Virus record (IMG/VR): IMGVR_UViG_3300038435_000069
Coordinates: 1 to 21,031 of that record
Length of the DNA stretch: 21,031 bases
Origin: a virus
Reading direction: 5' to 3' (one strand)
Shown here: positions 3,288 through 21,031 of the stretch, in pieces
Numbering within the stretch: the first letter of the stretch is position 1
How the letters are laid out: each line of letters begins with the position of its first letter
The notes under the pieces: generated by a model
Seen by the model: only the letters and a program-made list of their open reading frames with translations
Databases searched by the model: none
Told to the model about the DNA's origin: nothing
Made by a program: the position numbers and the translations under genes

Positions 3288-4948
3288 GCCGCCATCGCAT
3301 CAGGCCCGAGAGCCTGCTGCGCCTCACCCATGGTCTTCGCGACCGTCGCCCCCGCGTTCATCTGCTCGAGCAGCTCGGCCGCCTGCGCCGACTGCTCTTC
3401 CTCGTCGCGGATCTCGTTCGCCTCATCCTCGCTGCGCAGCCACTTCGCCGGTGCGCCAATCGAGGTGATGACATCGCGGAACGCGGTGCGGACATCGATA
3501 TCGGCAGTGATGGTCGGGTCGAGCGTGATGGTGTCGGCGAGGATCGCCTTGACCTCCTGGAACTTCTGGCCCTTCTGCCGCTCGATCGCCTCGTGCAGCG
3601 GGCTCTCGAAGCGCCATGTCACCTCAGCATTGCTCAGCGATTTCGGCATCTGGTCGGCACGGCCGAACGCGCCATGGTCGAGCATCACCCCAAAAGTCGT
3701 CTCGCAGAGCGCGCCGTTATATTCGTCTTCCATCGGCTCGAAGATCGGCGAGGCCTGGCGGATATATTCCTGAATACGCTGCCCAACCTCATAGGCCGTC
3801 ATCTCCGGCCCATTCTGTGGCAGCGTCAGGATGTTGAGGAAGAAAGCCTCCTTGAGCATCGCCATGATGTCGCCGCGCATGTCGATGCCGATCGGGATGC
3901 CGCTCTTGTCCTGCGTCAGGGGGCGAAGCACCTCGCCGAGGCGCTCGTCATATTCCGAATCGACCCATGTCACGCCGCCCGCCTGGATGGAGATGTCGCC
4001 CCGGATCGCCTCCATCACGGCCACCATCGGCGGGTTGGTCGCCTTCTCGCCAGCTTCGAGCAGAACCCGCGTCATGTCCTGGATCAGTCGCATGTCGGGA
4101 AGCGCCGCTATGGTCGCCGGGGAGAAGGCATATTGCGAGCCGGACACGGTCTGCCAGCGCGGCACGACATATTTGAACCGGGTCTGGCCCATCGCTTCCA
4201 TGATGTGCTGGTTGTCGACGTCGATGAAGATCGAGATGAACGGCGTAACAAGTTGGCCGGCGCGGTTCCGGCGCAGCCACCGCTCATCGCCATAGTCCTC
4301 GGACGGCATCACGACGTGGCGGACGTTGAACTCGAAATAGGGGTTGGCGCGCGAGCCAGCCAGCTTCTCGCGGACCTTCTCATGCACGTTGGGGAACAGC
4401 TTCACCAGCATCGCCGCGGTCGGCTTCCACTTCCGATGCAGCGTGTCGACCATACCCTCCTCGCTTTCGGACCAGGCGCAGTCGCGCAGGTGCCAGCAGC
4501 GGAAGAGCAGGCCATCGGCGTTGCGATTGGTGTCGACCGACAGCACCGTCTGGCCGAACGCGGCGAAATCGTGATCGCCTTCCTTCGTCGCCCGGGTGAA
4601 CAGCGAGCGCCGATCGTACATCGCGCGGCGCATGGTGCCCGTCGCCTGCTCCAACCATTCCAGCGCCGGCTGATCCTCGAACTCCTCACGGCTCGCGCGC
4701 ATCGCGAACCACGGCACCGCCGTGGAGCGGAGCATCGACGAGAAGCTGTTGCCGAGATCTCGGCGCAACATGATCGGATAGCTGGTCGACAGATGATCGG
4801 CGAACTCATCGCCAAGCGTGCGGACGACTGTGAAGTCGGCGCGCTCGGGATAGCACTGGTCAGCGATCTCCTGCCACAGGCTGAGCAGCGTCCCGCGCTT
4901 GGCGAAGAGCTGATCACCGCGCTCGACCAGGGCTTTTGCGTCCATCAT
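3284..4948 (-). CDS. Portal protein (head-tail connector, T7 gp8-like)
   Basis: The 554-aa protein forms the dodecameric channel at one head vertex, through which DNA is packed and released. Its N-terminus (VERGDQLFAKRGTLLSLWQEIADQCYPERADFT) and the following SYPIMLRRDLGNSFSSMLRS segment are typical of the podoviral head-tail connector family (Pfam Head-tail_con). The length of about 550 residues fits that family. It has the usual middle beta region and an acidic helical C-terminus (EANEIRDEEEQSAQAAELLEQM). Two ATG codons stand in tandem at 4948 and 4945; the first overlaps the upstream stop as ATGA. Portals of this family go with short non-contractile tails, which is the main reason to call the phage podovirus-like. 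Confidence 0.92.
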   Translation of the reverse strand: MMDAKALVERGDQLFAKRGTLLSLWQEIADQCYPERADFTVVRTLGDEFADHLSTSYPIMLRRDLGNSFSSMLRSTAVPWFAMRASREEFEDQPALEWLEQATGTMRRAMYDRRSLFTRATKEGDHDFAAFGQTVLSVDTNRNADGLLFRCWHLRDCAWSESEEGMVDTLHRKWKPTAAMLVKLFPNVHEKVREKLAGSRANPYFEFNVRHVVMPSEDYGDERWLRRNRAGQLVTPFISIFIDVDNQHIMEAMGQTRFKYVVPRWQTVSGSQYAFSPATIAALPDMRLIQDMTRVLLEAGEKATNPPMVAVMEAIRGDISIQAGGVTWVDSEYDERLGEVLRPLTQDKSGIPIGIDMRGDIMAMLKEAFFLNILTLPQNGPEMTAYEVGQRIQEYIRQASPIFEPMEDEYNGALCETTFGVMLDHGAFGRADQMPKSLSNAEVTWRFESPLHEAIERQKGQKFQEVKAILADTITLDPTITADIDVRTAFRDVITSIGAPAKWLRSEDEANEIRDEEEQSAQAAELLEQMNAGATVAKTMGEAQQALGPDAMAA

Positions 4949-18100: not shown

Positions 18101-18444
18101 GACTTAGAGCTCCCCAACATGAGAAACGTAGTCGAACCATTCCGCACACGTCGGAACCGAGCGATCCGGGTACCGCCCGCGATAGGCTGTCGGACCTTGC
18201 GAACCGTTGGGGGGGGGGAATGATCTGCAAAGCCTGGAACGGCGCGAAGCGCGACCGCGACGATGCCGCGATCGGTCAGGCGGACATGGCCGCGCTCCGC
18301 CAGCCGCTCGGCCATGCGATAGCCGAAACCCTTGTCGCGCCCCATCGCCTTCGACAGCCCAAACCGCGTGATCGGGGCAGGGGCGGCACGGATTACGTCC
18401 ATCGCGAGCTGTTGCGTCGGTGTGAGGCTGAACAGCGCGCTCAT
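18097..18444 (-). CDS. Winged-helix protein with a C10 tract (115 aa)
   Basis: The 115-aa protein has a winged-helix-like N-terminal half: TPTQQLAMDVIRAAPAPITR, LSKAMGRDKGFGYRMAERLA and ERGHVRLTDRGIVAVAL. The C-terminal half is basic and Pro-rich (HSPPPTVRKVRQPIAGG). The codons for SPPPT contain ten C in a row (G10 at 18209-18218 on the plus strand), and slippage there would shift the frame. ATG at 18444 overlaps the deformylase stop as ATGA. It is probably an early DNA-binding regulator. Confidence 0.7.
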   Translation of the reverse strand: MSALFSLTPTQQLAMDVIRAAPAPITRFGLSKAMGRDKGFGYRMAERLAERGHVRLTDRGIVAVALRAVPGFADHSPPPTVRKVRQPIAGGTRIARFRRVRNGSTTFLMLGSSKS

Positions 18445-18908
18445 GAGTTGGCTGCCCACGCCTTGTCGGTGATCAGGACGCCGTCGAGATGGTCGATCTC
18501 ATGCTGAACGACGCGCGCGATCAGGCCGGCGAAGGAGCGCGATTGCGGCGCGCCCATCACGTTTTTCCATTCGACATCGCACTTCGCCGGCCGCCAGACC
18601 GGGCGATGCCGTTGCGGCGGTACCGACAGGCAGCCTTCACGCATTACCGCCTCGCGATCCAGCGAGCGGACGATGACCGGATTGGCCATGGCGATCAGCT
18701 CGCCCTCGACCTCGACGACGATCAGGCGCAGCGGCGTTCCGATCTGGACCGCCGACAGGCCGAGGCCGCGCCACTGCCGCATCGTCATAGTCATCGTCGC
18801 GGCAAGGCCGGCGAGATCCTCACCGAACTCTTCGACCGGAACGGAGACCTCGCGCAGCAGCGGATCATCGTCACCCAAGACCCGGGGCAGGATCATCGGC
18901 ACGTTCAT
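18441..18908 (-). CDS. def: Peptide deformylase
   Basis: The 155-aa enzyme removes the formyl group from the N-terminal methionine of new proteins. All three family motifs are present: GLGLSAVQ (48-55, with the oxyanion Gln55), EGCLS (91-95, metal ligand Cys93) and QHEIDHLDG (135-143, metal ligands His136 and His140, catalytic Glu137). The protein ends 12 residues after motif III, so the C-terminal helix of E. coli Def, about 169 residues, is missing. A short C-terminus is known for phage-encoded deformylases. It is the second gene of the early operon, joined to cro by ATGA, and so would be made at once after induction. Confidence 0.95.
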   Translation of the reverse strand: MNVPMILPRVLGDDDPLLREVSVPVEEFGEDLAGLAATMTMTMRQWRGLGLSAVQIGTPLRLIVVEVEGELIAMANPVIVRSLDREAVMREGCLSVPPQRHRPVWRPAKCDVEWKNVMGAPQSRSFAGLIARVVQHEIDHLDGVLITDKAWAANS

Positions 18909-19132
18909 GCGGCGCGCTCGGTGGCGGTGGGCACTTCTTCAACGATAAACTGCTGCCAAGACAGCGCGTGACCGCGAGCCAGCGCCTTATCGATTATGAG
19001 CTGCCAATATTTCGGCGGAATGCTTTCGCGATTGCGCCATTGGCGGACGGTGACCCCTGGCATGCCGAGGTCAGCGGCCATGGTCTCGGCGTTGCCGTCC
19101 CATGGCTCGAAGATGTGCGCGAGCTTTGACAT
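18905..19132 (-). CDS. Cro-like regulator
   Basis: The 75-aa protein has one helix-turn-helix (AETMAADLGMPGVTVRQWRN, then RESIPPKYWQLIID), as in small Cro-type repressors that recognise their operators as dimers. It faces the cI gene across the operator region and leads the early operon. Start ATG 19130-19132 is preferred; the frame is open upstream but would cross the operators. There is no Shine-Dalgarno sequence, and the promoter at 19141-19168 would start RNA within about 3 bases of the ATG, so its mRNA may be leaderless. Confidence 0.85.
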   Translation of the reverse strand: MSKLAHIFEPWDGNAETMAADLGMPGVTVRQWRNRESIPPKYWQLIIDKALARGHALSWQQFIVEEVPTATERAA

Positions 19133-19140
19133 GCCGCAAA

Positions 19141-19168
19141 CTGATACAGCACGTATCGACAACGTCAA
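19141..19168 (-). promoter_or_regulatory. Early lytic promoter (PR-like) for cro
   Basis: On the minus strand, TTGACG (-35, 19163-19168) is separated by 16 bases from TATCAG (-10, 19141-19146). The -10 overlaps one operator half-site and the -35 overlaps the other operator, so bound repressor would cover the promoter. The same plan recurs at 20417-20444. Transcription should begin near 19133-19135, practically at the cro ATG. Confidence 0.65.
19143..19157. promoter_or_regulatory. Repressor operator 1 at cro/cI
   Basis: Perfect palindrome GATAC-N5-GTATC (arms 19143-19147 and 19153-19157), 15 bases in all. It is the usual size of a lambdoid operator. A second one lies 24 bases further right, and two more of the same form lie near 20404-20442. 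Confidence 0.8.
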
Positions 19169-19183
19169 TACCTCTCGTATCGG
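19156..19183 (+). promoter_or_regulatory. Weak promoter for cI (PRM-like), overlapping the cro promoter
   Basis: On the plus strand TCGACA at 19156-19161 is separated by 16 bases from TATCGG at 19178-19183, a mirror image of the cro promoter on the opposite strand. The -10 is poor, as is usual for maintenance promoters. Initiation near 19190 would leave a leader of about 15 bases before the cI ATG at 19206. Confidence 0.4.
19167..19181. promoter_or_regulatory. Repressor operator 2 at cro/cI
   Basis: Palindrome AATAC-N5-GTATC, arms 19167-19171 and 19177-19181, with one mismatch to the perfect form. Its centre is 24 bases from operator 1, about two helix turns, which allows side-by-side binding of repressor dimers on one face of the DNA. 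Confidence 0.75.
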
Positions 19184-19205
19184 ACCGGGCTTTAGTCCTG
19201 TCTCG

Positions 19206-19889
19206 ATGTCGAATCAGGCCGACCGTCTCAGAGAAGCCCGCCTCAAGGCCGGCTATTCGTCAGCTTCGGCGGCAGCTCGCGCCTTTGGCTGGACTGAATC
19301 CGCCTATCGTCACCATGAAAACGGCACGCGCCCATTCGATATAGAAACGGCCAAGCGCTACGGTCGCGCGTTCAAGGTTAATCCCGGCTACCTCCTCGCG
19401 CTCGACAAGGTTACCGGGCAAGCGCCGGTCACAAGCGAGCAGGGCGAGATCACCGTGATCGGCGCGGTCGAGGCGGGCATGTGGCGTGAACAGGCCGAGT
19501 GGCCGTTAGAGGATCAATATACGATTGAAGTTCCGGCATCACCGATTCCGGGCGAACGCTTTGGGCTGGTCATGCAAGGGCTGTCGATGGACAAGACCAT
19601 TCAGCCGGGCTCGACGCTGGAGTGCCTGCGCATTCTTTTCGGTGTCTATACGCCGCAGCCCGGCGATCTTGTGATCGTTGAACGCAAGCGCCACGATCTT
19701 ATCGAAACCACTTGCAAGCGGCTGCATTTGACTTCGGAGGGGATCTGGCAACTGCTATGCGAGAGTACCAGACCGGAGTTTCAGGCGGTAATCGAGATCG
19801 GCAAGCCCGACCCGGACCAGATCACCGATGATGAATATCGCGTAGTGGCTGTTGTGCTCAGGGCTTACCAATTTCATTTTCGGCGATAA
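19206..19889 (+). CDS. CI-like prophage repressor (HTH plus S24 peptidase)
   Basis: The 227-aa protein keeps the lytic genes off and is inactivated after DNA damage. The N-terminal XRE-type helix-turn-helix covers about residues 5-68 (LREARLKAGYSSASAAARAF, ESAYRHHENGTRPF). The C-terminal part is an S24/LexA-like self-cleaving domain: cleavage site Ala90-Gly91 in GAVEAGMW, nucleophile Ser127 in QGLSMD, and Lys171 in TTCKRL. Both catalytic residues and the cleavage site are present, so RecA-stimulated autocleavage is expected. Start ATG at 19206 is chosen because in-frame ATGs further up lie at or beyond the operators. Its stop is one base from the stop of the convergent 59-aa gene. Confidence 0.93.
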   Translation: MSNQADRLREARLKAGYSSASAAARAFGWTESAYRHHENGTRPFDIETAKRYGRAFKVNPGYLLALDKVTGQAPVTSEQGEITVIGAVEAGMWREQAEWPLEDQYTIEVPASPIPGERFGLVMQGLSMDKTIQPGSTLECLRILFGVYTPQPGDLVIVERKRHDLIETTCKRLHLTSEGIWQLLCESTRPEFQAVIEIGKPDPDQITDDEYRVVAVVLRAYQFHFRR

Positions 19890-19890
19890 G

Positions 19891-20070
19891 TCACCACCCA
19901 GCGCGGTTGATCATGTCCGCGCATATCCCGATCGATATCAAGGCCCAGAGCGTTAATAGCGCCCCGCCACGCCATCTCGGTGCGAAGAGCATCCGACCGC
20001 CGGTGATCAGGCAAAGCGCAGCCATCACTCCCGCCACGATTGCGGCAGCAGTGTACATCACCATCGTCAT
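19891..20070 (-). CDS. Small two-helix membrane protein (59 aa)
   Basis: The minus-strand frame from ATG 20068-20070 to TGA 19891-19893 encodes 59 residues. There are two hydrophobic segments, YTAAAIVAGVMAALCLITGG (about 6-25) and ALLTLWALISIGICADMI (about 38-55), joined by a basic loop (RMLFAPRWRG). The loop charge puts it on the cytoplasmic side, with both ends outside. It begins 6 bases after the stop of the secreted-protein gene, so the two form an operon. Other ATGs stand at codons 3 and 5. A holin shape is possible, but no endolysin gene is near. The function is unknown; a lysogeny-linked membrane role, such as exclusion of other phages, is conceivable. Confidence 0.6.
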   Translation of the reverse strand: MTMVMYTAAAIVAGVMAALCLITGGRMLFAPRWRGGALLTLWALISIGICADMINRAGW

Positions 20071-20076
20071 CGCTGT

Positions 20077-20352
20077 TCAGTAACCGCGCGACCGGTCCCA
20101 GCTCGGCCTGGTCGATCCCGTCAGGCTATTCGTTGATCGGTTCGGATCCCGGGTGCCTGTCTGGCCGGTGTAGGGGTTGTAATTGCCCTGCGCAGAATAG
20201 TTGTTGTAGCGCGAGCTATCGGGCGTGCTCCGATAATGCGGCTGAACATATGTGCCGTCGCTGCGCATATAGCCCTGAACGTGAGTGCTGGACTGTGCCA
20301 GCGCTGGGGCCGCTGCGGCTATCGCGAGCAGCAGAGCTAAAACCTTCGTCAT
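20077..20352 (-). CDS. Secreted small protein with signal peptide (91 aa)
   Basis: The 91-aa protein starts MTKVLALLLAIAAAAPALAQ, a clear Sec signal peptide with a likely cut after ALA. The mature part (HVQGYMRSDGTYVQPHYRST, RYNNYSAQGNYNPYTGQTGT) is the short Tyr/Asn/Gly-rich module seen in many proteobacterial exported proteins ('GY.R.DGTYV.PHYRS...NY...GN.NPYTG..G'), whose role I do not know. GGGAGA lies about 8 bases before the ATG at 20352; a GTG just before it is the alternative. The gene lies between cI and the second operator pair, opposite in direction to cI, which is a usual place for a lysogenic-conversion gene. Confidence 0.82.
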   Translation of the reverse strand: MTKVLALLLAIAAAAPALAQSSTHVQGYMRSDGTYVQPHYRSTPDSSRYNNYSAQGNYNPYTGQTGTRDPNRSTNSLTGSTRPSWDRSRGY

Positions 20353-20403
20353 CACCGTTCTCCCACGGACGAAATCCGTAGGTGGAACGATTGCATATTA
20401 GTC

Positions 20404-20418
20404 GATACAAGATGTATT
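20404..20418. promoter_or_regulatory. Repressor operator 3 (distal pair)
   Basis: GATAC-N5-GTATT, arms 20404-20408 and 20414-20418, one mismatch from a perfect palindrome. It carries the same motif as the cro/cI operators about 1.24 kb away. Its right half merges with the -35 box of the rightward promoter. Confidence 0.75.
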
Positions 20419-20444
20419 GACATAGCCGATACGTGATGTATCAA
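20417..20444 (+). promoter_or_regulatory. Second lytic promoter, repressed by CI, reading rightward
   Basis: TTGACA at 20417-20422, a 16-base spacer, and TATCAA at 20439-20444. The -35 is a perfect consensus. The layout (operator, TTGAC, operator with the -10 in its end) matches the cro promoter position by position. It should drive the 103-aa gene at 20540 and the repeat-protein gene. Initiation near 20451 gives a leader of about 90 bases. Confidence 0.7.
20428..20442. promoter_or_regulatory. Repressor operator 4 (distal pair)
   Basis: Perfect GATAC-N5-GTATC, arms 20428-20432 and 20438-20442. It is 24 bases from operator 3, exactly the spacing of operators 1 and 2. It overlaps the -10 of the rightward promoter. 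Confidence 0.8.
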
Positions 20445-20491
20445 CACTCCACCGCCGGAGCATTTCCCCCCGCTCTGTCTCCGGCGCCCCA

Positions 20492-20525
20492 GGCCCTCGG
20501 TCCACCGCCCCCCGGACCGAGGGCC
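20492..20525 (+). other. Perfect 12-bp hairpin in the leader of the rightward operon
   Basis: GGCCCTCGGTCC (20492-20503) and GGACCGAGGGCC (20514-20525) form a perfect 12-bp stem with a 10-base loop. It ends 5 bases before the GGAGG ribosome site of the 103-aa gene. No T run follows, so it is not a normal terminator. It may control translation, pause polymerase or act as an antitermination or processing site. Confidence 0.65.
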
Positions 20526-20882: not shown

Positions 20883-21031
20883 ATGATCTACAAGGGCAAG
20901 CATACTGGCGATCTGATCCTCAAGAAGGGCGCCGATGCCTCGGCGCTGACCAGCGTCGGCGGGTCCGTCTACGTCAGCGAGAACGCTCAGTTCGATGCCT
21001 CGGCGCTGACCAGCGTCGGCGGGTACGTCGA
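20883..21031 (+). CDS. Repeat protein with 20-residue units (partial)
   Basis: The gene starts at ATG 20883 with AGGAG about 8 bases upstream and leaves the window after 49 full codons. After MIYKGKHTGDLILKKGA come 20-residue units: ADASALTSVGGSVYVSENAQ and then FDASALTSVGGYV. Regular short repeats with the pattern A-L-x-x-V-x-G-x-V-x-V are typical of beta-solenoid proteins of the leucine-rich or pentapeptide-like kind found in phages. It is the second gene of the rightward operon. How long the repeat domain is cannot be seen. Confidence 0.8.
   Translation, partial: MIYKGKHTGDLILKKGADASALTSVGGSVYVSENAQFDASALTSVGGYV
20933..21031 (+). repeat. 60-base tandem repeat in the repeat-protein gene
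   Basis: A 32-base stretch beginning at 20933 recurs exactly at 20993, one unit of 60 bases later, followed by near-identical sequence. The near-perfect DNA identity means recent duplication or gene conversion. The array runs past the window end, so copy number is unknown. Confidence 0.85.

Follow-up and report, generated by a model that had tools for sequence, protein, structure and literature searches.

The question raised by this locus is why one paired palindrome occurs twice, in inverted orientation, on either side of a cI-like gene, and whether a single repressor acts at both places. The window, i.e., the whole virus record IMGVR_UViG_3300038435_000069 (21,031 bp), was scanned for GATAC-N5-GTATC, and all four sites that the initial annotation had reported were recovered where it had placed them, as pairs at 19143/19167 and 20404/20428 with 24 bp between starts in each pair (Table 1). 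The four 15-bp palindromes conform to (G/A)ATAC-N5-GTAT(C/T); two are exact and the other two carry one mismatch, which in each pair lies at the mirror-image position, in the half-site carrying TTGAC. The match also continues between the operators, as had been claimed, forming inverted arms of 41 bp (19142-19182 and 20403-20443) that are 85% complementary, lie 1220 bp apart, and contain TTGAC in the spacer between their two palindromes. Thus, cI is flanked by two inverted operator sets of the same sequence. The suggested promoter elements, TTGAC(A/G)-N16-TATCA(A/G), overlap the operators on opposite strands, leftward at the proximal pair beside cI and rightward at the distal pair.

Table 1. 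Features of the proposed immunity region; positions are those of the window, and promoters and transcript starts are predictions.
Feature	Position	Strand	Sequence or remark	Basis
cro, 75 aa	18905..19132	-	Start codon 10 nt past operator end	carph-isopro / P22-Cro-like HTH
Predicted cro promoter (PR-like)	19141..19170	-	TTGACG N16 TATCAG; predicted start ~19132-19134	
Proximal operator at -10 of cro promoter	19143..19157		GATACAGCACGTATC	Pattern scan, relatives, weight matrix
Proximal operator at -35 of cro promoter, cI side	19167..19181		AATACCTCTCGTATC	Pattern scan, relatives, weight matrix
Gap to cI start, 24 nt	19182..19205	+	TA at -13/-12 (TAGTCC), possible -10 of leaderless cI promoter	
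cI repressor, 227 aa	19206..19889	+		Pfam, PHROG_4, LexA alignment, AlphaFold
Small hydrophobic protein, 59 aa, cargo	19891..20070	-	Convergent with cI	ORF only
Small secreted protein, 92 aa, cargo	20077..20355	-		PHROG_29674
Distal operator at -35 of rightward promoter	20404..20418		GATACAAGATGTATT	Pattern scan, relatives, weight matrix
Predicted rightward promoter (PL-like)	20417..20444	+	TTGACA N16 TATCAA; predicted start ~20451	
Distal operator at -10 of rightward promoter	20428..20442		GATACGTGATGTATC	Pattern scan, relatives, weight matrix
Two GC-rich stem-loops, rightward transcript leader	20453..20525	+	Includes hairpin 20492-20525	Folding z -2.8
First rightward-operon gene, 103 aa	20540..20851	+		PHROG_9174

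Single sites with up to two mismatches are not rare in the window (5 observed, 4.6 expected). Pairs with at most one mismatch were absent from 2000 shuffles of the window, pairs with at most three were absent from 20 shuffles of the 470 kb of relatives (9.4 Mb), and 397 additional genomes of the same family as one host genome contained no such pair. When a weight matrix built from relatives only was run over the 21-kb window, the four operators scored 17.1-18.9 bits and the next best site 4.2, so that the scan of the whole phage record returned these four alone; neither the matrix nor comparison with relatives revealed a third operator at either pair.

The cI product combines a helix-turn-helix (HTH) carrying YRHHENGTR with an S24/LexA-type C-terminal domain (Pfam) and belongs to PHROG_4, transcriptional repressor. 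The family profile contains a LexA-like C-terminal domain, and in the window protein Ala-Gly (VEAGMW), Ser (GLSMDK), and Lys (CKRL) stand at the LexA/CI positions when the sequence is read against a LexA alignment, so that the S24 domain is predicted to be self-cleaving. The AlphaFold model (mean pLDDT 87) has the lambda repressor as its nearest solved structure, and by this model CI has the lambda-repressor fold. As a single-protein query against genome contigs, the window CI gave no match. The CI proteins of three relatives (L036, L019, and L038) share the HTH and operators with the others and align poorly past the HTH; the S24 Ser and Lys motifs are absent in the alignment, and induction must therefore differ there.

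Adjoining cI and divergent from it, past the proximal operators, is a gene with homologues at the equivalent place in 30 relatives by alignment. NCBIfam NF046037 (carph-isopro) is matched by 25 of 26 family members, the window protein itself scoring 37.1 against a cut-off of 38. The family profile matches both PDB 3bd1 (Xfaso1 Cro) and 1rzs (P22 Cro), and the AlphaFold model, with five helices, has 3bd1 as its best PDB match, a weak one by fold (E 0.66); unlike those two proteins, however, the window family goes under an NCBI domain name of its own. These matches and the position of the gene identify the carph-isopro proteins as likely Cro proteins. In the leftward operon, cro is directly followed by a peptide deformylase gene (18441-18908, minus strand).

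In a search with the single-pair pattern, virus contigs yielded 40 stretches and bacterial genomes 8; once duplicates and contigs ending too soon were removed, 34 distinct relatives remained. Although these were picked by one pair, a second, inverted pair was present across cI in 28 of the 34 and absent in six with enough DNA, some of which have a different repressor. Ten further contigs were obtained with the CI protein alone and judged by inspection, and nine have two inverted pairs (L069 has none). The same layout occurs in the named phages Synechococcus Ssp-JY40 and Yong-M3-232, Bradyrhizobium ppBeUSDA76-2, Ruegeria 45A6, and Caulobacter DMCA, and the same method gave no convincing inverted double pair in Nostoc Nsp-JY10, Rhizobium N28_2 and TM3_3_3, or Microcystis Mwe-JY08; the DNA of the whole region had no match among named phages. 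Named hosts of pair-carrying genomes are Aureimonas, Zavarzinia, Sphingomonas, and Sphingobium, and metagenome-assembled genomes with the pair are labelled Parvibaculaceae, Sphingomonadales, Robiginitomaculum, or Proteobacteria. One relative, L050, is a prophage of Sphingobium lactosutens DS20. Ssp-JY40 and Yong-M3-232 (L079/L080), recorded from cyanobacteria, carry an alphaproteobacterial-type switch with a CI 44% identical to that of the window, and their real host may be a companion bacterium and not the stated Synechococcus. On the Sinorhizobium meliloti megaplasmid pSymB (2274468-2275157; L088), a CI-like regulator is flanked on either side by AACAC-N5-(G/A)TGTT sites and may be what remains of a prophage or a domesticated switch. 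That dozens of independent phages have cI between two inverted pairs supports the proposal that one CI silences both a leftward cro operon and a rightward operon.

The promoter-like elements recur with the operators. In promoter direction, the consensus of 70 pairs is GTATTGAC-N(5-8)-GATAC-N5-GTATYRT, in which TTGAC straddles the edge of the upstream operator and the downstream one ends in TATYRT; among the relatives, L032 alone lacks TTGAC at its distal pair. The sixth base of the -10 element is T in 44 of the 70 pairs and not in this phage, for which reason neither window promoter passed a strict sigma-70 consensus scan; the scan returned nothing in the region. The two pairs differ in what follows them: at the proximal pair, 30 of 30 loci have a start codon, either ATG or GTG, 7-11 nt past the operator, whereas at the distal pair only one of 29 has an ATG in that interval (ATG alone, 28/30 versus 1/29; Fisher p 2e-13). 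With the -10 element at the operator end, the predicted transcript start coincides with the cro start codon or lies only a few bases from it, and the cro mRNA is thus probably leaderless.

In several relatives found by CI search, half-sites are altered at both places (GGTAC/AGTAC, AATCC/GATCC, and GGTGC with GGATT), and other classes likewise occur in the named phages ppBeUSDA76-2 (GCTAC), 45A6 (GACAC), and DMCA (AATGC). The score of the proximal-distal alignment exceeded all 100 shuffles in L068, L072, L075, L076, L079, L080, and L087, equalled the best shuffle in L070, L077, L084, L086, and L088, and fell below it in L055, L071, and L073, although L055 has consensus-like pairs at both places. 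Spacing follows the same trend: three loci with a proximal spacing of 32 have distal spacings of 30-32, and the two are correlated even among GATAC loci (permutation p 0.006). Over all operator classes, own pairs beat foreign pairs (0/20000 permutations), a figure biased by the variant loci, in which the distal site had been identified by aligning it with the proximal site of the same locus. Within the GATAC class there was no covariation of half-sites (own 9.43, foreign 9.41 of 10), since these are nearly invariant. CI residue 33, just before YRHHENG, is Ala or Gly with GATAC sites and mostly Thr or Arg with changed half-sites, except that L053 combines Thr with GATAC sites; this association, noticed after the fact, makes it a possible specificity residue.

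Inverted repeats can also arise by duplication, and similarity of the five central bases is higher within loci than between them (2.45 versus 1.99 of 5), which would favour a recent second copy, or a recombination or packaging signal without regulatory role. However, the arms do not match outside their 41 bp, the half-sites are constant despite variation in the centre, operator classes of different sequence share the layout, and TTGAC and TATYRT stand in register at both copies, all of which make this origin very improbable. The altered half-sites that match at both places instead argue for one CI acting at both pairs, as do the lambda-like genes beyond each side. On the cro side, the relatives have CII-like, RusA-like, and O-like genes, and beyond the distal pair they have integrase, excisionase, and Erf-like genes; the Yong-M3-232 annotation likewise has cII on one side and cox with integrase on the other.

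The interval between cI and the distal pair bears on what else the distal operators might do. The initial annotation had placed cI and two genes for secreted or membrane products between the pairs, and this stands, with the amendment that both cargo genes run opposite to cI, unlike the arrangement in lambda. The 59-aa hydrophobic protein has no family match in Pfam or PHROG, and a protein similar to the 92-aa secreted one is found at the equivalent place in L025 (4062-4448); membrane or secreted products recur here in several relatives, and the interval may be comparable, by analogy, to the place of rexAB in lambda. Just left of the distal pair, TAATAT (minus strand, about 20394-20399) is a candidate -10 for a leftward cargo promoter that the distal operators would overlap, and both cargo genes run leftward from there. 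The distal pair may thus also lie over a promoter for the two cargo genes. It might even serve mainly this promoter, Cro, or a different repressor, governing the divergent pair of rightward operon and cargo genes and not lysogeny as a whole; in four relatives with a pair and no second one (L014, L021, L033, and L044), the CI profile is matched only over short parts of the HTH, and such sites may therefore be used by other repressors. Nevertheless, many relatives have nothing between cI and the distal pair, which is still present with TTGAC and faces away from cI, and the genes beyond it are those of integration, excision, and recombination. A main role of this kind is therefore unlikely, and it would in any case be compatible with control of the same site by CI.

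The rightward transcript is predicted to have a leader. Among the relatives, folding of the distal-side leader is significantly better than that of proximal-side or control sequences, and 19 of 29 distal leaders have a hairpin whose 3' arm contains a Shine-Dalgarno-like sequence, against 11% in controls (examples are L025 at about 4498-4530, L051, L032, and L016). Such a stem-loop suggests possible translational control of the early operon. The window leader differs from those of the relatives in being longer, with two GC-rich stem-loops and its own Shine-Dalgarno sequence outside the first hairpin, and an Rfam search returned only a sub-threshold chance match. The second rightward gene (20883-21031, plus strand), truncated where the contig stops, opens with DASALTSVGG repeats.

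On the other side of the proximal pair, cI starts 24 nt past the operator in most loci, and TA is enriched at -13/-12 from its start codon in the relatives, so cI may be leaderless too. In many relatives this gap holds a third operator, in registers +15, +24, and +35 (L013 at 4053, L029, L026, L037, L040, L045, L007, L008, L024, and L079), of which +15 and +24 both place TA near -13/-12 of the cI start; the window has none there. The two Synechococcus phages have GATAC sites and three operators on each side. In the window, the centre of the cI-side operator lies 32 bp from the cI start codon, as it does (about 32 bp) in most relatives, and should cover the -35 of the cI promoter, in which case CI would repress and not activate its own gene, depending on where the cI transcript starts.

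The lambda immunity region comprises OR1-3, OL1-3, cI, rexAB, and cro, and CI bound at OR2 activates cI from -42. The window resembles it in having two inverted operator sets over outward lytic promoters (here predicted) with cI and cargo between, in the 24 bp between operators (also the OR1-OR2 and OL1-OL2 distance in the lambda record), in an S24-type CI, and, through the relatives, in the PR/PL gene order (CII-like and O-like genes on the side of cro; integrase, excisionase, and recombination genes past the distal pair). It differs in having two operators per set and not three, although some relatives (e.g., L013, L029, and L079) have three on the cI side; in the 32 bp between operator centre and cI start codon, compared with 42 for OR2; and in a cro start codon 10 nt past the operator, compared with 26 nt from OR1. 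No N-like gene was recognised in the short rightward part of the window, and the pairs are 1.26 kb apart instead of 2.4 kb. The description of the locus as a compact lambda-like PL/PR design is thus borne out by layout and gene order, whereas activation of cI by CI, as in lambda, is not expected from the geometry.

Lambda CI loops 2.3 kb of DNA with two sets of three operators (PMC5880393). The topology of the window is the same as that of OR and OL, and both pairs are retained in nearly all relatives, 404-2564 bp apart, as might be expected if CI at the two pairs also looped the ∼1.26 kb between them and the loop were needed for tight repression and cI autoregulation. However, helical phasing of the pair-to-pair distances was not found over this range (10.0-11.0 bp tested), and the second promoter alone accounts for the second pair. 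The data thus speak neither for nor against a loop, which is possible; its necessity, as an addition to the double switch, is a tentative proposal that falls short of probable.

Other phages offer partial parallels. In PY54, cI and cro are both transcribed as leaderless mRNAs, as determined by RACE, with OR sites next to cI and OL sites preceding repA (PMC4488713). The window resembles PY54 in its leaderless regulators (here predicted) and has two groups of sites, as does immB of the telomere phages PY54, N15, and phiKO2 (OR and OL sites), but these are another phage group, and PY54 Cro binds only OR3. Rhizobium phage 16-3, whose repressor C has been studied in complex with its operators according to the reference list of PMC10460002, is likewise a temperate phage of an alphaproteobacterium.

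Overall, the locus is very probably the immunity region of a temperate alphaproteobacterial phage with a lambda-like double switch, in which one CI would act through four operators on two outward promoters; the core layout of one CI module, two operator pairs, and two predicted outward promoters is strongly supported by the sequence comparisons. CI dimers would bind the four near-identical palindromes, two of which cover the leftward promoter of cro and the main lytic operon (PR-like) and two the rightward promoter of a second early operon (PL-like). With the operators at -35 and -10 filled, 24 bp or ∼2.3 turns apart as in OR1-OR2, both promoters would be shut, and pairwise cooperativity of CI is likely. 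DNA damage would lead to RecA-assisted self-cleavage of CI and open both promoters at once, and Cro, made from a leaderless mRNA, would then act at the same sites.

The kind of switch is already known from lambda OR/OL. Within the material searched, what is new is its breadth in Alphaproteobacteria, the operator code, the constant, predicted leaderless cro, the position of the operator relative to cI, and the likely identity of carph-isopro as Cro. A literature search returned nothing on carph-isopro and no description of GATAC-N5-GTATC as a phage operator in the journals it covered, which excluded most subscription journals, among them those with the 16-3 operator papers. The chance is somewhat below even that these phages form a large, undescribed alphaproteobacterial class of switch. 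In such a class, cI and the two lytic promoters would all be repressed by CI, with no CI-activated PRM; cI and cro would both be expressed from leaderless mRNAs; and repressor specificity would have changed several times, with concerted changes in the two operator sets.

For phages annotated mostly as hypothetical, the sequence recipe of paired palindromes with TTGAC in the spacer, occurring twice and inverted around an HTH gene, locates CI operators, cro, cI starts, and two early promoters, and it gives the NCBI carph-isopro family a likely function as Cro. With pairs 0.4 to 2.6 kb apart and several operator codes, the relatives also form a natural series of double-operator switches suited to testing the long-standing question of whether a second operator set serves looping or only a second promoter.
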